Shown here one piece after another: positions 3,761 to 50,192 of a stretch of 64,000 nucleotides of DNA (position 1 is the stretch's first letter; each line of letters opens with the position of its first letter). The stretch covers positions 1,116,001-1,180,000 of the forward strand of contig NZ_CP114015.1 of the NCBI RefSeq assembly GCF_026898095.1. The letters are read 5' to 3'. The stretch comes from Arthrobacter sp. ATA002 (GTDB lineage: Bacteria > Actinomycetota > Actinomycetes > Actinomycetales > Micrococcaceae). The notes under the pieces are model-generated. The model was not told where the DNA came from. It ran no database searches and saw only the letters and a program-made list of their open reading frames with translations. The translations under genes were made by a program, and so were the position numbers.

Positions 3761-4156
3761 ATGCGCGATGAGTATGTCGACGCCGTCCGTTCAGTGGTTG
3801 CCCTGATACCGGCCGGCAGGGTCCTCTCCTATGGGGACATCGCTGAGATCCTGCACGAGGGCGGCCCGCGGCAGGTGGGTGCGGTCCTGTCCCGCAGCGG
3901 CAGCGGCCTGCCCTGGTGGCGGGTGATCCGTGCCGGGGGAGAGCCGCCCCGGTTCCATGAACGGAGTGCCCTGGAGCATTACCGCAGCGAGGGGACGCCG
4001 CTTTCCGGAACGCCCGACGACGACGGCGGGGGCTACCGGGTGCGGATCGGTCCGGCCCGCTGGTTCCCCTCGGCGGGGGACTGGACGGTGATTGAAGGGG
4101 TCCGGGGGAGCTGGCGGCGGATAAAACGGGAATGTCGGCGGGACATGATGAAGTAG
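3761..4156 (+). CDS. Alkyltransferase-like protein (MGMT family)
   Basis: 131-residue member of the O6-alkylguanine-DNA alkyltransferase family. The residues before the active site (IPAGRVLSYGDIAE, PRQVGAVLSR) are typical, but the catalytic PCHR motif reads PWWR at residues 51-54, so the acceptor cysteine is replaced by tryptophan. Proteins of this ATL type bind alkylated guanines without repairing them and flag the lesion for nucleotide excision repair. The gene ends 4 nt before adnA and probably forms one transcription unit with it. In mycobacteria a similar gene lies near the adnAB operon, so the association appears old. The ~35-residue basic C-terminus is longer than in minimal ATL proteins. 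Confidence 0.88.
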   Translation: MRDEYVDAVRSVVALIPAGRVLSYGDIAEILHEGGPRQVGAVLSRSGSGLPWWRVIRAGGEPPRFHERSALEHYRSEGTPLSGTPDDDGGGYRVRIGPARWFPSAGDWTVIEGVRGSWRRIKRECRRDMMK

Positions 4157-4160
4157 GGGC

Positions 4161-7100
4161 ATGAGCGTAAAACTGCAACTGGTTGGACCGTCGGCCGGAA
4201 CTGCCCCGGCTCCACAGCTAAGTCCGGACCAGCAGGCCGTCGCAGACCTGCCTGCGGGCAGCGGCCCGGTCCTCGTCCTGGGCGCTCCCGGCACCGGGAA
4301 GTCGACAGTGCTGGTGGAAGCTGCCGTCGCCCGGATCAGAGCGGGAATGGACCCGGCCGGGCTCCTGTTGCTTGCCCCCACCCGCCTGGCCGCAGCCGCG
4401 CTGCGCGACTCCCTCTCCGCCAGGCTGCAGGGAACACTGAGCACGTCCCCCGCACGCACCTGGGCCTCCTACGCCTTCGACCTGATCCGGCGGGCCAAGG
4501 CGGAGGGGAGGCTGCCGTACATTACCCGGCCGCCCAAGCTGCTGTCGGGCGCCGAGCAGGACGTCATTATCAAGGAACTGCTGGAAGGACACGGTCAGCA
4601 GGGCGTCCCCGCCCTGCCCTGGCCCGATTCCCTGGGCCTTGCCCTGCCGACCCGCGGTTTCCGGCAGGAGATCCGGCAGCTCTTTGACCGCATCATTGAA
4701 TACGGGATTTCTGCTGAGCAGGTGGCAGGCCTGGGCCGGCGGCACGGCCGTGAAGACTGGGTGGCGGCAGCGGCCCTGTACGCGGAATACCGGGATGTCC
4801 TGGACATCCGCATGCCCGAGGCTTTTGATCCCGCAGGGATCATCACCTCCGCACTGCACATCCTGGAGTCGGATCCGGAGTTCCTCGAAGCGGAACGGGC
4901 ACGGCTGCAGTTCATCCTCGTGGACGACCTGCAGGAGGCGAATCCCGCCATCCACGCCCTGCTGGGACTGCTCGCCGGAGGACGCGACACCCTTGTGACG
5001 GGGTGTCCGGACACGGTGGTGCAGGGCTTCCGCGGTGCCCGCCCGGATTTGCTGGGCAAACTCGCCGACACTTTGGGGGAGGAGCTGCAAACCTTCGTTC
5101 TGTCCGAACCGCACCGGCTCAGCGGCTCCGTTGCCGGTGCCTGGCTTCGGACCGCATCCCGGATTTCCGTGGTCGGGCAGCTTCCCCGGTACCGGGCGGC
5201 GGTGCTGCCGGCCCCGCCGCAGGAAACCTCCGGAGGGGAGCCGGGGCCGCCGTCCTCCTCCACCGGGCCCGACGCGGCACACGCCGCTGCCCGTGCCGAA
5301 GCGCACGTGGTGGATTCGCCCATGCATGAACTGCGCTACATCGCCCAGCGCATCCTCGAAGCCCAGCTGCTGGACGGGCGGAGCCTGGAAGACATTGCCG
5401 TGATCGTGCGGACGGGCGGGCAGCTGGCCCGCATCCAGCGCTACCTCAGCGGGCAGGGCATTGCCGTGAAAGTGCCCGTGGCGGAAAAGGCGGTGCGGGA
5501 TGAAGCTGCCGTGAGGCCGCTGCTGGAGGCGTTCGCCGTGGTCCTGGATCCGGAACTGCTCACCCCCGAAGCTGCGGTCTCGCTGCTGACCTCGCGGATC
5601 GGCGGAGCCAGCTCCATTGAGCTGCGCAGGCTCCGCCAGTCGCTGCGCCGAGAGGAAATCCGCGGCGGGGGAGGCCGCACCAGCGACGCCCTGCTGGTGG
5701 AGGCCCTGCTTGATCCGCTCTCGCCCAGCGGCCTGACGCTCGCAGGACTGACCTGGGAAGCGCGCTCCGCCCAGCGCACCGCGGCCATGCTGCGGGCCGG
5801 ACGGGCTGCGGCGGAACAGCCCGGAGCCACCGCCGAAACCGTTCTCTGGGCCCTGTGGTCGGTTTCCGGGTGGTCCAAGAAGTGGGCCGAAACCGCGCTC
5901 TCCGGAGGCCCGGCCGGGGCACGGGCGGACCGCGACCTCGACGCGATCATGGCTCTCTTCCAGACGGCTGAACGCTATGTGGACCAGCTGCCCGGTTCCA
6001 CGCCCGCGCAGTTCCTGGACTACCTGACCAGCTCCGAGCTGCCGATGGATACTCTTGCCGCCCGGGCCCAGCGGCGTGACGCAGTGGAACTGCTCACGCC
6101 CGCCAGCGCCGCTGGCCGGGAGTGGCCCATGGTGATCGTTGCCGGCGTGCAGGACGGCGTATGGCCCAACCTGCGCCTGCGCGGCGAACTGCTCGGCAGC
6201 GGTGACCTGGTGGCGGCCATCGAGTACGGAGACGGATTCGCCAAACACCGCAGTCCGCAGTCCCTGATGCACGCGATCCGGCATGATGAACTGCGCAGCT
6301 TTTCCACCGCCGTCTCCCGTGCCCGCGAGCGGCTGGTGTGCACCGCCGTCTCCTCGGACGACGAGCAGCCTTCGGCGTTCCTGGATCTGGTGGATCCGCT
6401 GCCGCCGCAGGCCGTGAAGCGCGAACGCACCGAGGTGCTGCGCCCCCTGACCCTGCGTTCCCTGGTGGCAGAGCTGCGCGCCTATACGCAGCAGGCACAG
6501 GAGAAGCCGGAACTGGCCCGCGAAGCGGTGCACCATCTGGGAACGATGCTCAACCATCCCGTGCGGGTCCCCGGCGCCGCGCCGGCGGAGTGGTGGGGGC
6601 TTGCGGAGCTGTCCACCGCGGATCCGGTCATTCCCGGGGAAACGCCCATCCCGGTGTCACCGTCCAAGGTCGACGCCGTGCTGAAGTCGCCGCTGAGCTG
6701 GTTCGTGTCCGCGGCCGGCGGCGAGCAGGCCACCGACTTCGCCCGTTCCCTGGGGACCCTGGTCCACCAGATTGCACAGGACATGCCCGATGCCTCGGGC
6801 GGGGAATACGTCCGTGAACTGGAGCGCCGCTGGCCCGCGCTGGGCATGAAGGACAACTGGGAAGGCAAGCTGGACTTCCGGCGCGCCGAGACCATGGTGC
6901 GCAAGCTTGCCGCCTACGTCATCACCATGCGCCAGGAAGGGCGGTCACTGGTGGACGTGGAACGGGACTTTGCCGCCGAAGTGCCGGTGGAAATCCGCGG
7001 GCGGGAACGCACGGCTCTGCTCCGGGGCCAGATCGACCGGCTGGAAATCGACGCCGAGGGGCGCCTGTTCATTGTCGATCTCAAAACCGGAAAATCGGCG

Positions 7101-7477
7101 CCCAAAAAGACGACCTCGAAAAGCACCCCCAGCTGGCGGCTTACCAGGAGGCGGTCCGGGAAGGCGCGGTGAACCGTGACGTCCCGCAGGAGGCAGTTCC
7201 GGAAGACGGAGCTGCAGCCATCCGTCCGTCCCGCCCCGGCGGCGCCGCCCTGGTCCAGCTGGGAACCACCAGCAAGTCGGTGGCCGTTCAGCAGCAGCCG
7301 CCACTGGATCCTGCGGACACCAGCGCGCGGGACATGGTCCGTGAAGCGGCCGCGCTAATGTCCGACGCGCATTTTGATACCGTCCATGACCCCACCCGCA
7401 GCGGGTTTGGCGGCCACGGCTGCCGGCTCCCCGAAATCTGCCCGCTGTGCCCCGAAGGAAAGCAGGTCACCGAATGA
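4161..7477 (+). CDS. adnA: AdnA helicase-nuclease subunit (frameshifted)
   Basis: AdnA subunit of the AdnAB motor-nuclease that resects double-strand breaks in Actinobacteria; 1105 residues when restored. The N-terminal UvrD-like motor has Walker A GAPGTGKS at 41-48. The DExQ box is altered to DDLQ at 255-258, as expected for the AdnA motor, which is considered the auxiliary one. The C-terminal RecB-type nuclease shows GQIDRLEI, IVDLKTGK and QLAAYQ. A base is missing in the A-run at 7104-7108. Adding it continues the frame through DDLEKHPQLAAYQEAV to a cysteine-containing tail (CRLPEICPLC) that could bind metal. The ribosome site AGGGG precedes the ATG, and the stop overlaps the adnB start (ATGA). 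Confidence 0.92.
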
Positions 7478-10400
7478 GTGCCTCCCTGACCGAAACGCTT
7501 GCCCCCGGGACTCCTCCGGCTCCGCGCTACTCCGCCCGGGAACTTGCAGAGATGCTGCACACGGATCCGGCAAATCCCGTCCAGTACCCCACGCCGGACC
7601 AGATCGGGATCATCGAGGCACCTCTGGAGCCGCTGCTGGTCATTGCCGGCGCAGGCTCAGGGAAAACGAAGACCATGGCTGACCGGGTGGTCTGGCTGGT
7701 GGCCAACCAGCTGGTGCGCCCGGAACAAATCCTGGGTGTGACCTTCACCCGCAAGGCGGCCGGCGAACTGGACAGCCGCATCCGCCAGCGGCTGGACCTG
7801 CTGTACCGGGTCCAGGCTGCGGGCACCGCTGATCCGGGCCTGATTCCGCCCGGCAGCGGGCCCGATGTATCGGAGGACGCCAGACTGGATCCGGCGGTCT
7901 CCACCTACCATTCCTACGCCAACGGCATCGTCAACGATTACGGCCTGCGCCTGGGCGTGGAACGTGATTCGGTCATGCTCGGCGGCGCCCAGTCCTGGCA
8001 GCTCGCCACCGAGGTTGTCGAGGCCTACGCCGGCGACTTTGAACATTTCACCGCCGCGAAATCCACCCTGGTCAACGGCGTCCTGCAGATGGCCGGTGAA
8101 TGCGCTGAACACCTCACCAGCCCGGCGGAGGTGCGGGCACACCTGGCCGAACACCTGGAGGCCGTCACCCGGCTGCCGTACCTGGCGGGCAAGCCCAAGG
8201 CAGCCACTGCGGCCGTGCAGAAACTGATGGACCGGCTCCGCACCCGCATTTCCGTCACCGAGCTCGTCGAAGCGTACCGGCGTGCAAAGTTCGAGCGCCG
8301 GCAGCTGGACTTCGGCGACCTGGTGGAAATGGCCGCCACGATCGCCGCCACCATCCCCGAGGCCGTGGAGATGGAACGGGCCAAGTACAAAGTGGTGCTG
8401 CTGGATGAATTCCAGGACACCTCCCACGCCCAGATGGTGCTCTTCTCCCAGCTTTTCGGTGACGGCCGCGCCGTCACCGCGGTCGGCGACCCGCACCAGT
8501 CCATTTACGGCTTCCGCGGCGCCTCTGCCGGCCAGCTGGGCACGTTCCGCGACCAGTTTCCGCTGTTCCTTCCGGACGGCACGCGTGCGCTGGCGCCCGT
8601 CGCCAACCTTTCCGTCGCCTGGCGCAACTCCACGTCCATCCTGGCCGCCGCCAATACCGTGTCCGCGCCCCTGAACAGCACTGCGCCGTGGCTGACCCGG
8701 CAGCGGCTCCCGCATGTTCCCGAACTGCAGGCCAAGCCCAAGGCACCGGTGGGGGAGGTCCTGCTGGGCCGCTACCTGACGGATGTGTCAGTTGCGGGAG
8801 AAGACGGGACCGACGGCATCCTGGGAGAAGCCGACGCGGTGGCCGACCAGGTGCAGTGGTACCGGACCCCGCGGCCCGGCTGGGCCGGATTTGAAACCGA
8901 CGACGCCGGCAAGCCGCTGCAGCCCACCGTGGCCGTGCTGTGCCGCGGACGCAAGCAGTTCGGCCCAATCCGGGAGGCGCTGGAAGCGCGCGGCATACCG
9001 GTGCAGATTGTTGGACTCGGCGGATTGCTGTCAACCCCTGAAGTGGTGGACGTACTGGCAGTGCTTCGGGTGCTCGGGGACCCCGGCCGCTCGGATTCCA
9101 TGCTGCGGATCCTGGCCGGGGCGCGCTGGCGGATCGGGCCGGCGGATCTGATGGCGCTGGCGGACTGGTCCCGGCACTTGGTCCGGGTCCGCGAACGGGC
9201 GGTGTCCGTTGCCGATGCCGCCGATGTCCACCGGCCGGACGAGGAGCAGGACGGTGCCGGGTCCGTGGTGGAGGCGGATATGGCCGAAGCCGGGTCACTG
9301 GTGGAAGCCGTTGACTCCCTGCCGCGTCCGGAGTGGGTCTCCAGCTCCGGACGATCGCCTCGCCGGAAGGGCTGCGCCGGCTGAAACTGCTGCGCGACGA
9401 GCTGCGGGACCTGCGGAGCTTTGTCGGAGAAGACCTGACCACGCTGATCGGCGAAGTCGAGCGCCGCATCCTGCTGGACATCGAAGCAGCCGCGAAGCCC
9501 GGTGTCTCCATCCATGAGTCGCGCCGGAACCTCGACGCCTTTATCGACGCTGCGGCAACCTTCAGCTCTTCCAGTGAACGGGTGGACCTCACGGCCTTCC
9601 TGGCCTGGCTGGAAGCCGCCAACGACGAGGAAAACGGACTGCCCGTCACCCAGCTGGAGGCCAGCCGCGAGGCCGTGCAGCTGCTGACCGTCCACGCGTC
9701 CAAGGGACTGGAATGGGACGTTGTGGTGGTGCCTGGCCTGAATGAGGGCCAGTTCCCCAACGACCGTGACTCCCGCTGGAGCAGCGGCGAGGGATCCATT
9801 CCCTGGCCCCTGCGCGGCGATGCGCCCGACCTCCCGCAGTGGGACTGGGAGCAGGAGGACCAAAAGGGCTGGGTGGACAGCGAGAAACTCTTCAGCGAGG
9901 ACGCGCGCGGTCATGCCGAGCGCGAGGAACGCCGCCTCGCCTACGTGGCCTTCACCCGCGCAAAGTACGTCCTGATCTGCACCTCCAGCGTGTGGGGCGG
10001 CGGACGGTCCAAGCCGACTGCGGTTTCCCGCTACCTGCAGGACCTCTACGACCTGGGGCAGCAGGCGCCGCAGGCTTTACGCTCCTGTCCTGGGTGCAGT
10101 CCGGTGACGAAGGCGACAGCAACCCGGCTAATGCCGATGTGCGCCGGGCCAGCTGGCCGATCGATCCCCTGGGCGGCCGGCGCGCGGCTGTGGAGGCCGC
10201 CGCTGCCGCAGTGATGGAAGCGGCGGCCCGTCAGGCGGGCCGGGTCGGGCAGGCTGAAATCGATATCCTGACCGGTGCCGAGGGACTGGAAGCGGAAGGC
10301 CCCCACGAGTCCTCTCCGGGGGTGTTTGAGCCCACGCGCTGGGCCCGGGAAGTGGAGCTGGTCCTGGCCCGGCACCATCCGCCGAACCAGGTGGTGGAGG

Positions 10401-11010
10401 TTGAACTGCCCGCCCATATCTCCGCCTCCCTGCTGGTTGACCTGAAAGATGATCCGGAGGAGGTCACCCGGCAGCTGCGGCGCCCGTTCCGCGGGAGCCG
10501 GGCATGGCCGCACGCAAGGGCACGGCCTTCCATGCCTGGGTCGAGGAGTTCTTCGGGACCAGCGGGATGCTGGACATCGATGAACACCCCGGAGCAGCCG
10601 ACGCCTACGTGGACGAGGCTTACCAGCTGGAGGAAATGATCGCCACCTTCGAGGCATCCCCCTGGGCGCAGCGGACTCCGGCCTTCATCGAAGTGCCCGT
10701 CGAGACCCGCGTGGACGCCGTCGTGGTGCGCGGCCGCATCGACGCCGTCTTCCAGGACGCCGACGGTACGTGGGACCTGATCGACTGGAAAACAGGAGCT
10801 CCGCCCTCCAAAGACAAGCTGGACGTCAGGGCAGTGCAACTGGCGGTGTACCGGCTGGCGTGGGCACGGTTGAAGCAAGTGCCGCTGGAGAAGGTCAACG
10901 CGGCTTTCTACTACGTGGCGGCGGACAAGCTGATCCGTCCCTTCAACCTGCTGGGGGAAAAGGAACTCGAGGACATCATCCGCGCGGCCAACTCCCCGGT
11001 CCGGGACTGA
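7474..11010 (+). CDS. adnB: AdnB helicase-nuclease subunit (three frameshifts)
   Basis: AdnB subunit of the AdnAB complex, 1179 residues when restored. Walker A (GAGSGKTK, about residue 59), motif Ia (TFTRKAAGEL), an intact DEFQDT box and GDPHQSIYGFRGA mark an active UvrD-type motor. VHASKGLEWDVVVV and YVAFTRAKY are motifs V-VI. The C-terminal nuclease shows GTAFHAWVEEFF, GRIDAVFQD, LIDWKTG and QLAVYRLAW. Three 1-bp deletions split it: about 9345-9357, the GG at 10073-10074 (PQGFTLLSW) and the CCC at 10483-10485 (RRPVPREPGMAARKG). Each repair joins conserved sequence. The ATG overlaps the adnA stop. Three independent hits in one otherwise intact gene fit read error better than decay. Confidence 0.91.
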
Positions 11011-11086: not shown

Positions 11087-11776
11087 TCAGGGAGTGGCCC
11101 GGCGAAGGGTCCCGTAAGAACCCGCCGCCAGCACTGCGCCGCCCAGCAGGAGCCAGCCTGTCAGTGTGAGAGGTGTCAGCTGGACAAACCAGGCTCCCAC
11201 GGCTGCCCAGGAGTCCGTCCAGGTTGCAGATGCCACGGCCCCCAAAAGAATCACTGCGAACCCTATAAGGGCAACTATCAGGCCGGTGGTGCGCCACCGC
11301 TTGTAGACCGTGGCAAACCAGAAGCCGAACATAAACAGCAGGGTCGACAGTGCGAAGTAGAGCAGGATCTGCGCATACCAGGCAGACTCCGCGATCCAGG
11401 GAATCGCGAAGATGGCGCCGTTCACGCCCCACCCGTTGGTGGCCTCCTCCACCAAGCCGAGGAGCCAGTAGAGCACACCGAGTCCCAGGGCCATTACTGC
11501 GAACAGGCCCAGGGTTCCAATGTAGAAAGAGCGCCGGCTGACGCTCATGGCCTGTGAGAACGGAAAGGTCAGGGTCAGCGCCTGCACCCCGATGCCGAGA
11601 AAATACCACATGACGGCCTGACCCGAGAGCGCCATCCGGATGCCGCCGGTGTCAGGTATAACCGCCAGAATCGCCACTGCGATGAGCGTGGAGGAGACGA
11701 GGATGATCGCTGGAATTCCGAGGAAAATCCATTTGTTGAGCAGCTGCATGCGAGCCACTGCCAGCGGCCGGTTCAT
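11087..11776 (-). CDS. ABC-2-like membrane permease
   Basis: 229-residue integral membrane protein with about six hydrophobic segments (around 19-40, 50-75, 85-105, 125-155, 165-190, 200-222). It is the membrane partner of the ATPase encoded just upstream, whose stop overlaps this ATG (ATGA). The context of GntR, ATPase, then permease is that of YtrA-type operons, which in Firmicutes respond to cell-envelope stress or antimicrobial peptides. The substrate cannot be read from the sequence. No family-specific motif was seen, so the permease role is inferred from topology and operon position. No frameshift is present. Confidence 0.82.
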   Translation of the reverse strand: MNRPLAVARMQLLNKWIFLGIPAIILVSSTLIAVAILAVIPDTGGIRMALSGQAVMWYFLGIGVQALTLTFPFSQAMSVSRRSFYIGTLGLFAVMALGLGVLYWLLGLVEEATNGWGVNGAIFAIPWIAESAWYAQILLYFALSTLLFMFGFWFATVYKRWRTTGLIVALIGFAVILLGAVASATWTDSWAAVGAWFVQLTPLTLTGWLLLGGAVLAAGSYGTLRRATP

Positions 11777-12701
11777 CGCAGCACCTCCAGATTCTGGTTG
11801 TCGGCATCGTCCCGGAAACCGGGGCCTTCATTTGCTTTGAGGGTTCTCCGGACAATCAGCTGCTGCAGCGAGACCGGCGCAAGCTCCAGCCCCAGAGTCC
11901 GCGCGAGCGCACGGTCCTCCGCGGTTAGTGTGCTGTCCACTGTTACCGAGGCAAGTGCTCCCAGCGAATCCCGGTGCAGCACGGGCCGTTCACCACAAAA
12001 TTTCTCCACTGCGGCGGAGGAGCCGGCAACGGCGAAAGCGGATCCTGTGATGGCTTCCACCTCGTCGTCCATAATGATGCGGCCATGGTCGATGACGATC
12101 ACATGTTCCAGCAGGTTTGCCACTTCGTCGATCAGATGGGAGGAAAGGACGATGGTCCGGGGATGGTCGGCGAAGTCGGTCAGCAGCCGGTCGTAGAAGA
12201 GCTGACGCGCCACGGCATCCAGACCGAGGTAGGGCTCGTCAAAAAATGTCAGTTCGGCGCGGGACGCCAGACCGATGATGACTCCGACGGCCGAGAGCTG
12301 GCCGCGTGAGAGTTTCTTGATCCGGTGCTTTTCGGAGCGGGGAGCTGGAAGTCGGATAACAGAACATCCGCCAGGTCCCTGTCCCAGTTCGGAAAGAAGA
12401 GCGCCGCTGCATCCAGGGCGTTGCGGATGGTGAAATCATCAGGATATTTCTGCGACTCGCGGACAAAGCAGATCCGGGAGAGGACCTGCTCATTCTCGAA
12501 GGGATGTGCACCAAAGATCCGGACGTCCCCGGAGCTGGCGAACTCCTGTGCGGTGAGGATGGACATCAGAGTGGTTTTTCCGGCTCCGTTGCGGCCCAGC
12601 AGGCCGTAAATGCGGTTGGCCGCCAAAGAGAGGGTGACATTGTCCAGCGCCAGCTGATCTCGGTAGCGGCGTGTGAGGTTGCGGGTTTCTACGACGGTCA
12701 T
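11773..12701 (-). CDS. ABC transporter ATPase, YtrB-like (frameshifted)
   Basis: ATPase of a GntR-controlled exporter, 309 residues when restored. Walker A is LGRNGAGKTT. The signature is the degenerate LSRGQLSAVG, Walker B is ELTFFDEPYLGLD and the H-loop is VLSSHLIDE. The break falls in the G-run at 12339-12342. Adding one base yields FQLPRSEKHRIKKLSRGQ, joining the helical domain to the signature. The C-terminal ~100 residues are a substrate-system-specific extension. The start overlaps the GntR stop and its own stop overlaps the permease start, so the three genes form one coupled transcript. The Arg in place of the first signature Gly is common in this exporter subgroup. Confidence 0.88.
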
Positions 12702-13084
12702 GGTGCCGGGGTCCCTTCGTGTTCGACGGCACTGCGGTGAATGAGCTCGGATAATTCCTCGACGCCGATGCCCAGCTTTCGCGCTTCATCGGCGACGGGT
12801 TGTACGTACTGGCGGTAGAACTGTTCACGCCGCTTGGTCAGCACGACGGCGCGGGCTCCGGGCGCAACGAACATTCCGATGCCGCGCCGTTTATACAGAA
12901 GCCCCTCGTCGACCAGCAGGTTGACACCTTTGGCTGCAGTCGCCGGATTGATCCGGTAAAAGGCAGCGAATTCATTGGTGGAGGGAACCTGGGTTTCCTC
13001 CGGGAGGACACCAGCCAAAATGTCCCCTTCGATGCGCTCGGCTATCTGCACAAAGATGGGGCGGGTGTCATCGAAAACGTTCAC
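12698..13084 (-). CDS. GntR-family regulator, YtrA subfamily
   Basis: 128-residue transcription regulator. It has the N-terminal GntR winged helix (PIFVQIAERIEGDILAGVLP, VPSTNEFAAFYRINPATA, GLLYKRRGIGMFV) and only a short two-helix C-terminal part, the architecture of the YtrA subfamily. These proteins usually repress their own ABC transporter operon until an envelope signal releases them. The gene is first in a regulator-ATPase-permease operon joined by 4-nt overlaps. A good promoter with an imperfect palindrome over the start site lies at 13161-13205, supporting autoregulation. GTG at 13082-13084 is the start codon; the 90-nt leader has no obvious alternative. Confidence 0.88.
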   Translation of the reverse strand: MNVFDDTRPIFVQIAERIEGDILAGVLPEETQVPSTNEFAAFYRINPATAAKGVNLLVDEGLLYKRRGIGMFVAPGARAVVLTKRREQFYRQYVQPVADEARKLGIGVEELSELIHRSAVEHEGTPAP

Positions 13085-13160
13085 GGGAGCCTGCGGATCA
13101 TGAGCTGCCTCGGTTCACTCAGAGCGGACCGGCGAAGCGCCTTATCCGGTTGGTTGGTTG

Positions 13161-13205
13161 GTTGGTGGTGTAACTAACCATAGAACCGGGCCGGCCAAAT
13201 GGCAA
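13161..13205 (-). promoter_or_regulatory. Promoter and putative GntR operator
   Basis: On the minus strand a -35 box TTGCCA (13200-13205), a 17-nt spacer and a -10 box TATGGT (13177-13182) form a near-ideal promoter. Starting within the -10 region is an imperfect palindrome GTTAGT-N6-ACCAAC (13161-13178), which would cover the transcription start. Such a site fits autorepression by the YtrA-type GntR protein. Four GGTT tetranucleotides (13148-13163) follow downstream. Confidence 0.65.
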
Positions 13206-13231
13206 GCAGACAAGAGTCAGCGAGGCAGCGA

Positions 13232-13352
13232 GGAAGGGGGCCGGGAGGCAGGGAGGAAGGGGGCCGGGAGGCAGGGAGGAAGGGGGGCCGGGAGGCAGAG
13301 AGGAAGGGGGCCGGGAGGAAGGAGGGGCCGGGAAGAAGGAGGGGCCGGGAGG
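13232..13352 (+). repeat. Purine-rich tandem repeat, 23-bp units
   Basis: About four head-to-tail copies of a 23-bp unit beginning GGAAGGGGGCCGGGAGGCAG (starts near 13232, 13255, 13278 and 13302), then two degenerate ~18-bp copies. The plus strand is almost pure purine with runs of 3-6 G. It lies between the GntR promoter and the phosphotransferase stop. The encoded frames are Arg/Gly/Glu low-complexity sequence and do not look like a gene. Copy number could vary between strains, and the G-runs could form quadruplex DNA. Confidence 0.85.
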
Positions 13353-13508
13353 CGAGAGGCGCTGGGCAGGGAAGCAGGAGGAATGGGCGCGGAGGGAGGG
13401 CAGGCGGGGTCAGCCTGCAAACCCGTGTCTTCACCGAAGCGGGGCTTGGCCGGAACAGATAAGAGGCAGGTGCCGGGCGGGAGGGGCGACTGCCCTCTCA
13501 TGCGTCCG

Positions 13509-14856
13509 TTACGGCTGCTGCTTGGACTGCTTCTTGTCCAGCGGTCCGGGCTTCTTCTTTTCGGGTCCGGGCGTCTGCGGCTTTCCCGGGGCTGATTCTC
13601 CCTTTGCCGGACGCTCCGTTGAGCTTTTCCGTGCCCGGGGCCCTCTGTCAGGACCGTAACCGCCGCGATGGCGCCGGTCTCATCGGTGACTGGCGGTTTC
13701 GCTCCCGCGGGAGCGACCGGGTCAGCTGCAATGGGGGTGACAGTGACACGTGAGGATCCGGCGCTCACCGTACCGCTGACCGTGGGGCTCTTGGCCGGAG
13801 CCGGATGAGAAGCCGGCAGCACCAAGGCCGGGGCGGCGGTGGAGGCGGTGTCGGCGTTTACTGCCGCGGTTTTTCTGCCGCGGCGACAGCAGCCCTCTCG
13901 GCGGCAGCTGCGGCTGCTGCTGCCTCGGCCTTTGCTGCGGCGTCCTGCTCCAGGATGTCTGCTTCCAAAGTGGCCAGCATTTCCTCGGCTTCGGCGATCA
14001 TCACCGGGTTCTCGGCGGCAACGCCGCGCACGAGCCACTGCGCCAGGGCGAACTCGGCGGAGAGCGCTGCCCGGCGGATCAGGTGCGGATCAGGCGTTTC
14101 GGTGCGGGCAGCGTTGTATGCCGCCTGCACAGCCTCGGTAAAGGCGGGGTCGTTGGCGGCGACCAGCCAGGCGAAGTCATCCGCCGGGTCGCCGATGCGA
14201 AGATCCGTCCAGCCGGTGACCGCGCTGATCCGTCCGTTGGAAACCAGGAGGTTGTCTTCGTGCAGATCCCCGTGCACCACCGAGGGATTGAAACGCCACA
14301 GCGTAACGTCCTCGAGGGCATGCTCCCAGCGGCGCAGCAGCACCGGCGGAATTTTGCCGGTGGTGGCGGCCTGGTCCAGTTCGTTGAGCTTGCGCTGCCG
14401 GAATTCGTTGGCCGAGTAGCTGGGCAAATCGGCGTCGTTCACCAGGTCCTGCGGCAGGCCGTGGATGGCGGCCATGGCCCGGCCGACTTCTCCGGGCAGC
14501 GCTCCGCCTTCAGCGACCAGGGAATCAATATCCCGCGTGGAGCCGGGCAGATGGGAGTAGACAAAGGTGCACAGGTCACCCTGGCGGACGGTTCCGGCCA
14601 CGTGCGGAAGAGCGAACGGAAGCTCTGCCCGTACTGCCGGCACGAAAGCCCGCAGTACCAGGAGTTCCGTTTCCAGCCTCATGCTGGCGTCAACATGCCT
14701 GGGGGAGCGTACCCGCCACTGTTTTCCTGCTTCGTCAACCAGCACGGCGGCGTCGAAGTCCGCGGCGTCGTCGGGGGAGCCGGCGACGCCGGTGGGGGCC
14801 AGCCCGGGGACGGCGGCGCTGGCCATTGCGGCCAATTCCATGGGGGTGCGTTTCAC
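13509..14856 (-). CDS. Aminoglycoside/macrolide phosphotransferase-like kinase (two frameshifts)
   Basis: Protein of the APH/choline-kinase fold, 449 residues when restored, related to proteins annotated as macrolide 2'-phosphotransferases. The catalytic loop is VVHGDLHEDNLLV; the usual Mg-binding IDW motif reads TGWTD, followed by RIGDPADDFAWL. After the kinase domain comes a long Ala-, Pro- and Lys-rich tail. 1-bp deletions in the T-run at 13870-13874 and in the C/G-run near 13630-13638 break the tail. Restored, it ends PGPEKKKPGPLDKKQSKQQP at 13509. The GTG at 14856 was preferred because TACGGT lies 7 nt upstream; an ATG at 14895 is possible. Chromosomal copies of this family need not confer resistance. 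Confidence 0.78.
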
Positions 14857-14863
14857 ATCTTCA

Positions 14864-14869
14864 ACCGTA
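14864..14869 (-). promoter_or_regulatory. -10 element, phosphotransferase-like gene
   Basis: TACGGT on the minus strand, 7 nt before the GTG at 14856. It has leaderless spacing and supports the chosen start. Confidence 0.45.
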
Positions 14870-14984
14870 GAGGTAGATGTGTTCCTAATAACCATAGGCT
14901 GGCGGCGAGTCGCCGGATGCGTGAGCAATAACTCAGCCCGGGCACGCGGTCCTGTTCCAACTACAGGTTGGGGGTGCGAGTCAG

Positions 14985-23170: not shown

Positions 23171-23201
23171 TTGCAAAGGGGACAAGAAAATGTCCTGTAG
23201 T
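23171..23201 (+). promoter_or_regulatory. Candidate promoter of the UPF0182 gene
   Basis: TTGCAA (23171-23176) and TGTAGT (23196-23201) separated by 19 bases, about 47 bases before the GTG start. The spacing is slightly long, so this is a tentative call. Confidence 0.35.
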
Positions 23202-23248
23202 ACCGGTTGCAGGCGCCGTGGACCGACGTACCGAACGATGAGGTAACA

Positions 23249-26200
23249 GTGACTTCCGGACCAAACGGCCCATTTTCCCGACCAAGCCCCAGCACGGGCA
23301 CCCGTCCCGGCAACCGGCGCAGACCAAGCCCCTTGATCGCCACGCTGATCGTGGTGGCAGTCCTTGTGATTGGTTTCGTGTACTTTTCGCAGGTCTATGC
23401 GGACGTCCTCTGGTACAACCAGCTGGGATACCTTGAAGTCTTTGTCAAGGAAAACCTGACGCGGATCGCCATGTTCCTCAGCGCGTTCATCGTGATGGCC
23501 GCATGCGTCTTCCTGAGCATTAGGGTCGCATACTCCTCACGTCCCGTGTACGCCCCTGACAGTGCACTGCAGGACAACCTGAACCGCTACCAGGCCCAGC
23601 TGGAACCGGTCCGCAAGCTCCTGATGATCGGCATCCCCGTCGTCGTCGGCGGGTTTGCCGGTACGGCAGCCATGTCCATGTGGCAGCAGGCCCTCCTGTT
23701 CTTCAACAGCCGCAACTTCGGCGAGCAGGATCCCGAGTTCGGACTGGACTTCAGTTTCTACCTCACCCAGCTGCCGTTCCTGGGCTTCATCATCGGCTTC
23801 CTCATCAGCGTGGTGGTCATCTCCGGGATCGCCGGCCTGCTGACGCATTACCTTTACGGCGGCATCCGCCTCGAGGAAAAGGGCATCTTCACGTCCCGTC
23901 AGGCGCGCATCCACATTGCCGTCATAGCTGCAACTTTCCTGCTGCTTCAAGCCGCAAATTTCTGGCTGGACCGCTACGACACGTTGCTGAGTACCTCCGG
24001 AACCTGGACCGGCGCCCTCTATACGGACGTTGAAGCTGTCATTCCGACCAAGACCATCCTCACCGTGGCCTCCGTTATCGTGGCCATCCTGTTCATCGTG
24101 TCAGCGGTCATCGGCCGGTGGCGCCTGCCCATCATCGGCACGGCCATGCTTATCATCACGGCCATCGTGGCCGGCGGCGTCTACCCCTGGATCGTGCAGC
24201 AGTACCAGGTGCGCCCCTCCGAACTGAGCAGGGAAGCTCCGTACATCCAGCGCAACATTGAGCTGACGCGGGAGGCCTACGGCTTGGACGAAACCGAGCT
24301 GATTGATTACGAAGCCACGGTTGAGGCCAATGCCGGCGCCCTGGCCGCTGACTCCGGCACCACCTCCAACATCCGCCTGCTGGACCCGAACGTCGTTTCG
24401 CCGGCCTTCTCCCAGCTGCAGCAGTTCCGGCAGTATTATCAGTTCCCGGAAACGCTCAACGTTGACCGGTACGACATTGACGGCGAAGTCCAGGACACCG
24501 TCATCGCCGTGCGCGAACTGAACACCGACGGCGTGCCCGACGGGTGGGTCAACGAGCACATTCTCTACACCCACGGTTACGGAGTGGTTGCCGCCCGCGG
24601 CTCCACCGTCCAGGCCGACGGCAAGCCCAGCTTCATGGAGTCCGGCATTCCGTCCAGCGGCGTCCTGGGGGACTATGAACCCCGGATCTACTTCGGCGAA
24701 TCCTCGCCGGAATACTCAGTGGTGGGTGCCCCGGAGGGCGCCGCCGCAGGAAATCGACCGCCCGCAGACCGGCGATTCCGACACCGAGTCCCAGACAACG
24801 TTCGACGGCGACGGCGGACCCAGCGTGGGCAATCTGTTCAACCAGCTGGTCTACGCCATCAAGTTCCAGTCCACCGAAATCCTGCTCGCGGATGCGGTCA
24901 ACGAAGAATCCCAGATCCTCTATGACCGCGATCCGCGCGAGCGTGTGGAAAAGGTTGCCCCGTACCTCACGGTGGACGGCAACGCCTACCCCGCAGTTGT
25001 TGACGGCCGGGTGCAGTGGATCGTTGACGGCTACACCACGAGCCAGTACTTCCCATACTCCACCCAGCAGGAGCTGCAGGCCGCAACTACTGATTCCCTG
25101 ACCACGGGAGCGGCGGCACTGCCGGCGGACCAGGTGAACTACATCCGCAATGCGGTCAAGGCCACCGTTGACGCCTACGACGGTTCGGTGACCCTCTACG
25201 CCTGGGATGACGAGGACCCGCTGCTGCAGTCCTGGCAGAGCGTTTTCCCGTCCACGCTCAAGCCCTACAGCGAGATGTCAGCGGATCTCATGGCGCACGT
25301 TCGCTACCCGGAGGACCAGTTCAAGGTTCAGCGTGAGCTCCTGGGCAAGTACCACGTCACCAATGCTGATTCGTTCTTCCGGAACGACGACGCGTGGAGC
25401 GTCCCGAACGACCCGACGGTCGCCAACTCCGAGGTCAAGCAGCCGCCGTACTACCTGTCCCTGCAGATGCCGGGCCAGGACGACACGGCGTTCTCCCTGA
25501 CCACCCCGTTTATTCCGTTTGTGGCCCCCAACAACGAAGCCCGCAACGTGCTGTACGGCTTCCTCTCGGCTGACGCGGATGCCGGGACCGGCGAAGACGG
25601 CGTCAAGAGCGAGGACTACGGCAAGCTCCGGCTGCTCTCGCTTCCCACCGACACCGTGGTGCCGGGTCCGGGCCAGGCACAAAACCGGTTCAACTCGGAT
25701 CCGACGGTGTCGAACGCCTTGAACCTGCTGCGGCAGGGGGCCTCCGAGGTCATCAACGGCAACCTGCTCTCGCTGCCTGTCGGAGGCGGCATGCTCTACG
25801 TGCAGCCGGTCTACGTACAGTCCTCCGGTGATGCGTCGTATCCGACGCTGCAGCGCGTACTGGTGAACTTCGGTGAGAGGGTCGGCTTCGCGCCGACGCT
25901 GGATGAGGCCCTCAACCAGGTCTTCGGCGGCGACTCCGGTGCCATCACCGGTGACTCTGAAAACGTCGGGCAGACCCCCGATCCCGGAACCGGGGAAGTG
26001 CCGGGCGACACCACTGCCGAGGCCGACCTCGCCGCAGCGCTGGACGATGCCGGGGCCGCCATCCAGGAGGGGCAGTCAGCGCTGGCAGCCAACGACTTCG
26101 CCGCCTACGGTGCGGCGCAGGACAAGCTCAACGCCGCCATCGAGCGGGCCATCGCCGCGCAGGAAGCCATGGACGAGGCGGCCGGGGGGACCGAGGAGGG

Positions 26201-26261
26201 GACCACCGGTGCCACCGAAGGTGCAACTCCCGCCCCCACGGAGGATGCCCAGGGCGACTAG
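23249..26261 (+). CDS. UPF0182 multi-pass membrane protein (frameshifted)
   Basis: Large membrane protein, about 1003 residues when restored, of the UPF0182 family found across Actinobacteria. About seven transmembrane segments occupy the first ~320 residues. The rest is a big extracytoplasmic domain ([60 protein letters not shown]). The acidic Ala-rich C-terminus is disordered. The frame shifts at the GGG of 24736-24738. Removing one G (or adding two bases) restores [22 protein letters not shown] at 23249 with GAGG upstream was chosen as the start. The biochemical function is unknown. It follows the PDZ protease gene, as in mycobacteria. Confidence 0.87.
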
Positions 26262-28080: not shown

Positions 28081-30119
28081 CTAGAAGCTGCCGCCGCCGC
28101 CGTCGAACCCGCCGAAGTCGCCGCCACCGCCGCCGAAACCGCCGAAGCCGCCGCCGCCCCAGCCGCCGCCGCCACCCCCGCCGCGCAGGATGGAGTCGAT
28201 AAGGATGCCGCCGAGGATGGCACCGCCGAGGCCGGAGCCGCCGCCGCGGCCGCCGTACATGCCGCCCCCGCCCCCGCCGCCGAATCCGCCGCCGAAGCCG
28301 TCGACGTCCTGCTGGGCCATATCGGCTGCCTGGGCTGCCAGGGCGTTGGCCTGCTGTGCGTAGGCGAGGGCGCTGACGGGATCCGATGACTGCAGGGCGA
28401 TGGCCTGCTGAAGGTTGCGCTCTGCCTCTGCGAGACGGGTCCGGGCCTCGCTGCCGACACCGCCGCGCCGGGCGCGGATGTAGTCGGCCGTTCCGGAAAT
28501 CTGCGCCTGGGCGGACATCACGGCGTGCTGCAGGGAGTCCCTGGCACGGCGTTCCTGCTCCTGCCGGTCGCGGATTCCTTCGAGGGCGCCGTCAAGCTGG
28601 GCGTTGGCCTTCTCCAGACGCCTCAGCAGGTCAACGGGGTTGTTCCTGACAGCCGCTTCGCTGTCAATGGCGGAGAGTGCCGCCTCGACGCCGGCGACCG
28701 GCCCGGCCAGGCCTTGGTTGCCTCGGAGGCGGCCAGGGCCCGTGCCTGGGCCAGATCCTGCCGGGCATCGGCCACCGCGCGCTGCAGTTCATCGCGGGCG
28801 GAGTCGAGTTCACGGCCGGTTTTTTCGATGGCGTCCAGCAGCACGTTGGTTTGGTGCACGCTTTCTTCGGCGGCACGGACAGCGACCACTGCCGAAGCCG
28901 TGTCGCCTTCCTCGAGTTTTGCGGAGGCAGCTTCTGCGGCGTTGTCGACAAACTCCAGCCGTTGGCTGGCCTGCTCGACGTTGTCGGCAACCTGGGCGAG
29001 GGCCGCGTCCGAGTACCGCTGTCGAAGCTCGGCCAGGGAACTGCGGGCTGCGTCCAGGCGGCCTGCAGCTGCCTGTGCGTTCCGGCGCGCTTCGGCCAGG
29101 GCAGCGGGCGCATTCTTTTCGAGCTCACGCAGTTTGTCGAAGTCCTCCTTGTGCGCCTGCAGCGAAGAGTTCACCGCCTCGCACCGCCGAATGATGTCCT
29201 TCAGCCAGGTCCGCTGCTGGGCTTCGGTATCAGGGATATGGTCATCGAGCTGCTGCTGCATCTTGAAAGACTCGCTCATGTGGTTCTTTGCCGCCGCGAG
29301 GTCCTCGGTGAAAGTCTTCACGGCATCGTCCCCGTAGGATGCCATCGCGAAGGACAGCTCCTGCTCGCTGGACTTTATGGCGTCGTCGGCTGCCACCAGC
29401 AGGCTGCCGGCACGCTTGCGCAGATCCGCCACGCTCAGTTCGTCGAGGGGATCGGTGGGGGGTGCCTCCTGCTCCCGGCCCCGGCCCGCAGTGACGGCGC
29501 CCTTGCTGCGGCTGCGGACAAACAGGAACGCAGCCCCGCCGCCGAGCAGGATGATTCCTCCAAAGAGGAACAGCGGTGCGAGGCTCACGCCACCCGAAGA
29601 TGAGGTACTGCCGTCGGAACTTCCGCTGCGTCCGGATTCGAGGGCATCGGCGGCGCTGACCGCTGCAGCCGCCCAGTCTTCCGAAGTGATGGTTTCCTTG
29701 CCGAAGAGTGCGTCCGTCGCTGCTTCCACCATTGCCGTCTCATGCTGTTCAGTGAGAACGGTATCCGCGGGTGCCGAAGCCTGGATCAGCCGGCTTTCCG
29801 TGGCAATGCTGAGCAGGGCTTCGCGCTCACCCAGGTTGCGCTGCGCGACCACCTGGTTGCCCCATTCCGTGGGGTCCGAAGGATCCGTGAACTCGTCCAC
29901 GTACACCACGAAGAGGGTGTAACCGGACTCCTGCCGGGTTTCGGTGATGGCGCTGCGGACCTCCTCGCTGTCCGGTCCCAGGACACCGGCGTCGTCAACC
30001 ACGAACTGTCCCGGCGGGATGGTCACCGGAGGCACGGCGGAGGCAGCCGTAGCCGATCCCAGCAGTGCTGTGACACTCAAACCCACCACGGCACCTAGCC
30101 GCTTGGTCTTCAACCGCAT
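28081..30119 (-). CDS. TPM-domain (YgcG-like) membrane protein with Gly-rich tail (frameshifted)
   Basis: 679 residues when restored. A signal peptide (residues 1-28, ending ASAVPP) leads to a TPM domain (about 38-160, VVDDAGVLGPDSEEV and YTLFVVYVDEF). One transmembrane helix (about 183-203) and a long cytoplasmic coiled coil (about 240-560) follow. The C-terminus is a Gly/Phe-rich tail (GGFGGGGGGGMYGGRGGG). The frame breaks at 28702-28706, where one G/C is missing; restoring it gives AWPGPVAGVEAALSAIDSEA and continues into the rest of the coiled coil. TPM domains occur in photosystem-repair phosphatases and in membrane proteins of unknown role. The gene precedes pspA. Confidence 0.85.
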
Positions 30120-30377
30120 AAAATTTGTCCTCAGGTTCGTCGTGGCATCTAAGATGATCCGCTGCGCTCGTCCCGTCCCGTCAGATCCCTTTCGGGCGGG
30201 CAGACACTTGCATCGATTCTATGGTTCACCTGATACCCAGTCCACCACGGTTCCCGGCGCGCGGTTATCGGTGAACTCTCAGGAAGTGTCCAGTTTTCTT
30301 CGAAGCAGGTCCCAGAAAGTGCTGTCATAGTTGAGTGAGCACTGATCAAGGGCATACCGATGTGGAAAGGACCGCAC

Positions 30378-48954: not shown

Positions 48955-50192
48955 CGGCCGGTGTCCCGCGCCCGGCCGGGGACGAGGTCCGCATCACCGG
49001 ATCCGACCAGTTCCTGCTCCTTCATCAGCGTAATGTCGAAGCCCTCGCGGCGGATCCGCAGGTCGACGTACAGCAGCGACGTCACGGCTGCCTGGAAGGC
49101 ATATCCAATGGCGCTGAAGAAAGCCGTCACGGCCACATTCAGCGCCACCAGCGCCAGCGTTGCGGCTGGGCCGGGTTCACCGCCGCTGCCAAAGGTGCCG
49201 ACAAGGCTCAGCAGCAGGCCCACCGGGGTGCTGATCACCGAGGAAACAATGGTCACCAGCAGCACCGTCAACGCGAGGATCCCGAAGGACCGCCAGAAGT
49301 TGCGGCGCGTCAATTGCCACGACCGGCGAAGGGAAGCGAAAACGCCGGCAGGCTCCAGCACCAGGGCCGCCGGTGCCAGGGCAAGCTTGACACCCAGCCA
49401 GGCGGCGACGGCGGCCAGCGCCAGGACGCCGAGGAGGACCACACCGATGCCTGCCACCCCCAGCGTGTCCACGATCAGGACCAGGGCAAAGGCGAAGGCA
49501 ACTAAGCCGGCGATCAGGATCACCGTCAGCAGCACACCAAGTCCCGCCAGCGGCAGCAGCCGCCTGCCCGAGAGCTTCCACGTTTGTGTGAATCCGGTCT
49601 TCAGGTTCAGGATTGACCGTGCGACGGGCACCACGAGCATTCCCTGCAGCAGCAGGACCCCCACGACGGAGACCACGGTCACGAGTGTTCCGGACGTCAG
49701 CGCGGGTCCGACTGATGTTCCGGCCGCTCCGAAATCCTCGTCCAAGAGCGCCGGGGAAAGCACGTTGTTGAAAAGGATCAGCGTCAGGACCGCAACGAAG
49801 GCCTGGACGAGGAGGGCTGCGCCGAAGGTAGCCGCCGCGTTCCTGCGGCACGCCTGGAACGCACCGTCGAGCAGCTCGCCCAGTCCCAGCGGCCGCAGCG
49901 GGATGACTCCCGGCTTGGGCGGGGGCGCCCACTGGCCCCAGGGTCCCCCCTGCGGGGGGATGCCCGGGGTGCCCCAGGGCTGGTTTTGCGGGGGGATGCC
50001 GGGGGTGCCCCAGGGCTGGTTTTGCTGCTCCCAGGGATTCGGCGGAGGTGAGGGCTGGCCCCAGGGCTGGGCCTGCGGCTGGCCCCATGGCTGCACAGGC
50101 GGCGGGCCGGGGACGTTCCCGGACCGGTCATTGGGCCCGGAAGGCTCGTCCCGCTGTCCCGGGATGCCGCCGTTGTGATTGTCCTGACCCAA
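48951..50192 (-). CDS. Glycerophosphodiesterase-type membrane domain protein
   Basis: 413-residue membrane protein, first gene of the MoxR operon. A Pro/Gln/Trp-rich cytoplasmic N-terminus (~95 residues) contains two exact copies of a 12-residue unit (NQPWGTPGIPPQ). A segment with IPLRPLGLGELLDGAFQACR follows, then about six transmembrane helices, with the conserved VLEPAGVFASLRRSWQLTRR loop typical of the GPDPase membrane domain family. It lacks a phosphodiesterase catalytic domain. This type often accompanies MoxR operons. The upstream region is shared with the divergent mtrA. Confidence 0.84.
   Translation of the reverse strand: MGQDNHNGGIPGQRDEPSGPNDRSGNVPGPPPVQPWGQPQAQPWGQPSPPPNPWEQQNQPWGTPGIPPQNQPWGTPGIPPQGGPWGQWAPPPKPGVIPLRPLGLGELLDGAFQACRRNAAATFGAALLVQAFVAVLTLILFNNVLSPALLDEDFGAAGTSVGPALTSGTLVTVVSVVGVLLLQGMLVVPVARSILNLKTGFTQTWKLSGRRLLPLAGLGVLLTVILIAGLVAFAFALVLIVDTLGVAGIGVVLLGVLALAAVAAWLGVKLALAPAALVLEPAGVFASLRRSWQLTRRNFWRSFGILALTVLLVTIVSSVISTPVGLLLSLVGTFGSGGEPGPAATLALVALNVAVTAFFSAIGYAFQAAVTSLLYVDLRIRREGFDITLMKEQELVGSGDADLVPGRARDTGR
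49954..50025 (-). repeat. Tandem 36-bp duplication inside the membrane gene
   Basis: Two adjacent 36-bp copies (49954-49989 and 49990-50025) differing at one base, encoding NQPWGTPGIPPQ twice. They keep the frame, so copy number can change without breaking the protein. Confidence 0.9.

Follow-up and report, generated by a model that had tools for sequence, protein, structure and literature searches.

A probably young, lineage-specific minisatellite between a phosphotransferase gene and the gntR-ABC genes of Arthrobacter sp. ATA002, a possible loading site for Rho

Introduction

Minisatellites are tandem arrays whose units range from 10 to 60 bp, and putative G-quadruplex sequences near bacterial promoters are likewise a known kind of element. 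Renibacterium salmoninarum belongs to the Micrococcaceae, the same family as the genome studied here. Among the variable-number tandem repeats (VNTRs) of this bacterium, 16 of 32 tested arrays were variable among 41 isolates (PMC4029610). For Rho-dependent terminators, the rut site is described as a stretch in which C exceeds G over 78 nt and a C recurs every 11–13 nt, and a polymerase pause site downstream is named as a further part of the terminator rule (PMC6407284). The Rho of actinobacteria is reported to have an additional stretch for binding RNA, and these bacteria are said to be poorer in intrinsic terminators (PMC4167861).

The window analysed here is a stretch of 64,000 nt from Arthrobacter sp. 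ATA002, the genome of which is a single contig of 3.9 Mb and the nearest named relatives of which belong to Arthrobacter (A. pullicola and A. luteolus, for example). It contains a strongly strand-biased tandem array in the spacer that separates a phosphotransferase gene from a gntR regulator gene. Literature searches on Rho or C-rich actinobacterial RNA, on Arthrobacter tandem repeats or G-quadruplexes and on YtrA/GntR operators returned nothing on this locus among the matches listed (titles and abstract beginnings), and a search joining rut sites with tandem repeats returned no match.

Results

Structure and composition of the array

Table 1. Positions of the array, its compositional features and the flanking elements within the window
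Feature	Position	Strand	Basis or remark
Tandem array of six units (23, 23, 24, 23, 17 and 17 bp)	13222..13348	.	TRF, unit reading, shuffles
G+A-rich (+) / C+T-rich (-) stretch, array inside	13206..13410	.	composition, sample extreme
G-run pattern with quadruplex potential	13236..13292	+	pattern scan, G4Hunter
Second G-run pattern	13385-13409	+	pattern scan
Two adjoining 78-nt rut-like stretches	13250-13327 and 13332-13409 (13250..13409)	-	C/G 6.38 and 4.27
APH-family phosphotransferase gene	13509..14928	-	Pfam PF01636; tail inferred from relatives
Hairpin right after the phosphotransferase stop	13447..13508	-	-24.2 kcal/mol, z -1.82
gntR promoter-like site, TTGCCA-17 nt-TATGGT	13177..13205	-	sigma-70-like; promoter scan
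Operator-like inverted repeat GGTTAGTTACACCACCAACCAACC, overlapping the gntR -10 box	13156..13179 (wider 13148-13179)	-	read from the sequence
gntR regulator gene, short	12698..13084	-	PF00392; orthologs found

TRF reported 13222–13322 as a 23-bp array of 4.3 copies with 92% match and a score of 172, compared with a best score of 84 among 500 dinucleotide-preserving shuffles of 13196–13508, which places the head-to-tail units above chance, as in a minisatellite. The consensus of the 23-bp unit on the + strand is GAGGCAGGGAGGAAGGGGGCCGG. The units extend over 13222–13244, 13245–13267, 13268–13291, 13292–13314, 13315–13331 and 13332–13348 and add up to 127 bp; the third of them is 24 bp long through one extra G, and the units have diverged by substitutions as well as in length. 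In the whole genome, the unit pattern with up to 3 mismatches gave 7 matches, five of them in the array, while the reversed pattern, used as a control, gave 1. The two remaining matches are isolated and carry 3 mismatches each, and a dispersed repeat family was rejected. A triplex (H-DNA) was rejected as well, because no exact mirror repeat has arms longer than 7 bases, too short to support it.

The first-pass annotation had placed a purine-only block of about 120 bp at 13232–13352, consisting of four near-identical 23-bp units and two degenerate 18-bp units. The four larger units are real, one of them being 24 bp long, but the degenerate pair measures 17 bp; the array itself starts at 13222, and the bias continues beyond it to about 13410, over a stretch of about 200 bp (13210–13410: purine 84%, T 4 of 201 bases). 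The description as purine-only had to be dropped: the 121 bases of 13232–13352 comprise 78 G, 28 A, 15 C and no T (purine 88%), and CC is present in every unit of the array. Its statement that the block is G-rich and strongly biased between the strands was correct, since the purine fraction reaches 0.875 per 120 nt, against at most 0.725 anywhere else in a 464-kb sample of this genome that joined the window with 20 other stretches.

Two other stretches of the window are recorded here. The second most strand-biased one, 4072–4190 (120-nt purine 0.683 at 4071, minus-strand 78-nt C/G 3.8 at 4082, G4Hunter 1.12), directly precedes a large conserved ORF, and 49935–50108 holds a GC-rich tandem array of 36-bp units, which 12/24-bp units adjoin.

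Flanking genes and the gntR promoter

Both genes flanking the array are read on the minus strand. The listed ORF of the phosphotransferase ends early, at 13858, and its frame is broken twice in the C-terminal tail. In another frame, a basic tail with a stop at 13509 resembles the KKKFGPIKKK ends of the proteins at two related loci (L003 and L004), and the tail probably continues through other frames to this stop. Once the stop is put at 13509, with frame shifts and as in the relatives, the array does lie between genes, as had been annotated: it follows the probable stop at a distance of 160 bp, and the gntR -35 box comes 16 bp after it. The hairpin that directly follows the stop is without a U tract, and 8 of 200 shuffles folded equally well.

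One gntR promoter-like site was found, against a shuffle mean of 0.1; its TATGGT is conserved in the nearest relatives (L003–L009), and other forms occur in more distant ones. The inverted repeat at the -10 box would act as the gntR operator. Read by eye over 24 spacers of the genus, its form is approximately GGTTAGTTA-N6-TAACTAACC, and the 24-nt site, anchored on the first GGTT, has an AACC end in 23 of the 24 spacer rows, again by eye. In the window, one arm of the repeat is stretched into GGTT repeats. The regulator, which we take to be YtrA-like, is followed by an ABC ATPase gene (PF00005) and then by a hydrophobic ORF without a Pfam match.

A micro-ORF of six codons (MIRRLP, ATG to TGA, 13081–13101, minus strand) overlaps the gntR start as GTGA and may provide translational coupling or a leader peptide. 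It was confirmed by script in the window (L002) and in L003, L004 and L006, with an earlier in-frame GTG picked in L006 and the ATG inside. The start pattern missed L005, L007, L008 and L009, in which the sequence looks identical by eye (ATG, but GTG in L009) and among which the printed sequences of L005 and L007 end before the gntR start.

The spacer in related genomes

Other members of the genus, as far as examined, lack the tract: when 29 genus genomes including the own one were searched at the DNA level, the full tract turned up in the own genome alone, and the partial matches of 73 bases (G020) and 37 bases (G017) are both away from this gene pair. The phosphotransferase gene lies within the 1.5-kb flank at 23 of the 24 in-genus loci, window included, and 2.7 kb off at the remaining locus, that of A. 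luteolus (L035); G002, of the same genus, has no close gntR. The 24 spacers compared are those of the window, of 22 genomes and of L035, which was taken instead of L014, a locus short of the phosphotransferase gene. The counts leave out L032, L033, L034, L036 and L037, which are taken to be G021, G006, G010, G016 and G012, already counted, and the comparison leaves out G002, out-of-genus relatives and G039–G042.

Tandem arrays unmatched by any of 200 shuffles are present in 8 of the 24 spacers, the window included. Compared by eye with the gene ends, five are taken as non-coding (L002, which is the window, L003, L007, L009 and L018), and their units of 23, 15, 23, 14 and 17 bp, respectively, are mutually unrelated; the arrays in L010, L013 and L017 are taken, also by eye, to lie within the phosphotransferase tail. 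Because the five non-coding arrays each have a different unit, the birth of arrays is recurrent in this spacer. In L018, a terminator-like hairpin is followed by an array of 17-bp units (TTTTGCTGCCCTGAGAC, 4.5 copies) before gntR, and the unit begins like the T tail of that hairpin.

Transcription termination

In transcript sense the tract is C-rich and G-poor, and its two rut-like stretches rank first and second in C/G on both strands of the 464 kb. Both stretches have spaced C and more C than G, and they lie after the inferred phosphotransferase stop. Of 35598 windows in the genome sample, however, 12021 pass the same rule, which therefore says little here, the size of the skew being the notable part. 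Folding of the tract is slightly better than that of shuffles (z -1.35), so that it is not specially unstructured, and no known RNA family was found by Rfam at gathering scores in 12900–13700. Rho is encoded in the genome by an open frame of 661 codons, with a match of 620 bits where the cut-off is 509. A genome-wide rule of C over G at 3' ends was rejected, as gene ends in general have a mean C/G of 1.07 (180 free 120-nt ends, the phosphotransferase end excluded).

A U-tailed hairpin, the mark of an intrinsic terminator, was sought on the minus strand of the window spacer and not found, and the three terminator-like sites given by the scan of 12600–14000 are all on the + strand, above 13509 and inside the phosphotransferase gene. 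Such a hairpin is present in 18 of the 24 spacers, compared with 46 of 480 shuffled spacers; the scan covers about 300 bases before the promoter and thus includes coding sequence where the spacer is short (L005), its rule asks for 5 G-C pairs, by which L007 fails and passes when 4 are allowed, and L012, with a strong hairpin and a poor T tail, is scored as a miss. The five further spacers that lack such a hairpin reach C/G maxima of 1.67, 1.84, 1.94, 2.00 and 2.71. Termination of transcription arriving from the phosphotransferase side, suggested by the first-pass annotation, is plausible, but by way of Rho rather than of a hairpin, considering the C/G of 6.38 and the lack of a U-tailed hairpin in this spacer.

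The likeliest activity of the tract, if it has any, would be to aid Rho in ending the phosphotransferase transcript, and such an activity is put forward tentatively, as somewhat less probable than its absence. A stronger form of this proposal, that the tract was selected as a Rho-dependent terminator and replaced the intrinsic one that most of the genus has, with the repeat fixed since more units load Rho better, is doubtful. It would account for the strongest C-over-G stretch in 464 kb standing at a gene end without the U-tailed hairpin that most of the spacers have, in a genome with Rho, and it agrees with the extra RNA-binding stretch and the fewer intrinsic terminators reported for actinobacteria (PMC4167861). 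However, the hairpin-less spacers of other species have no comparable excess of C, a hairpin of -24.2 kcal/mol does follow the stop codon here, and the tract occurs in none of the sister species searched. It is very unlikely that growth by slippage turned a hairpin-closed gene end Rho-dependent, so that the number of units would set the leak from the phosphotransferase gene into the gntR-ABC operon; if copy number did tune Rho termination, the array would work as a simple natural rheostat for the end of a gene.

Quadruplex potential

The suggestion that quadruplex DNA forms next to the GntR promoter was sound as far as sequence potential is concerned. Four G runs with short loops are present at 13236–13292, the 25-nt maximum of G4Hunter is 2.04, the 100-nt score of 1.76 is the highest in the 464 kb, and the array begins close to the -35 box. 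Nevertheless, a quadruplex of the + strand that regulates gntR or blocks the polymerase is highly unlikely, because the G-rich strand is the template strand for both genes, G-run patterns of this kind number 63 in 464 kb, and the tract is missing in relatives though the operator-like site is kept.

Assembly quality and reading frames

ORFs of relatives were frame-broken in the window in 8 of 20 cases for G003, 12 of 25 for G001 and 7 of 18 for G007, whereas the six pairings among these three genomes gave 0 to 3 broken ORFs per 19 to 36. In the reverse direction, window ORFs were split in 7 of 28 cases against G003, 6 of 25 against G001 and 6 of 24 against G007, as would happen if an indel let them continue in a wrong frame; with overlapping ORFs kept in, the frame breaks are 18 of 49 and the reversed ones 10 of 60. 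Conserved genes split over frames are seen, for example, at 7378–10995, 11776–12785, 23201–26243 and 28084–30137. Completeness is 94.24, compared with 99–100 in relatives of the same genus. Indel errors of the assembly are the likeliest cause of the frame breaks in the window. The warning of the first-pass annotation about assembly errors was apt, and because of these many breaks the lengths of G runs and homopolymers, including that of the 24-bp unit, are untrustworthy. Frame breaks and low completeness would also fit an assembly artefact in the copy number or the homopolymer lengths of the array, but this explanation is extremely improbable, as small indels cannot make a 127-bp array of diverged units, and the units vary by substitution too and not by length alone. 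The idea that the phosphotransferase ends in a Pro/Ser/Leu-rich C-terminal tail encoded by the tract, suggested by a frame open across the array (13217–14038, minus strand), can practically be dismissed, since another frame yields the basic tail to 13509 like that of L003 and L004, the 23-bp units shift the frame, and the ORF has no Pfam match.

Discussion

The array is rather likely a young, lineage-specific minisatellite in the spacer between the phosphotransferase gene and the gntR-ABC genes, and it is a possible loading site for Rho. An origin by slippage is very probable, as the pattern of the units suggests: a spacer rich in C and T in transcript sense would have given rise to the 23-bp units through replication slippage, and the 17-bp units at one edge of the array would be worn copies. 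The array is probably ordinary as well as young, because related species are without the tract and some of them have unrelated repeats at the same place. Should Rho act here, the phosphotransferase transcript, once the ribosomes are gone, would leave some 190 nt of RNA rich in C and poor in G exposed for Rho to load on, and transcription would end before or at the gntR promoter.

Taken alone, the array is of little consequence: a candidate marker for typing, and a reminder of the ease with which gene spacers gain short repeats. The genus moreover offers natural comparisons in its spacers with a hairpin, without a hairpin and with other repeats.

Compared with known systems, the locus resembles putative G-quadruplexes near promoters in having at least four runs of 3 or more G with short loops, and differs from them in that the runs here are on the template strand and are not conserved. 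With the rut sites of Rho-dependent terminators (PMC6407284) it shares an excess of C over G across 78 nt of 3' untranslated sequence, whereas the stretch here is repetitive and found in a single species. It is plausible that the array is a VNTR, polymorphic in copy number. Like the VNTRs of R. salmoninarum (PMC4029610), it is a short head-to-tail array of few units; unlike them, it is known from one genome, and its strand bias far exceeds that of the remaining genome sample.
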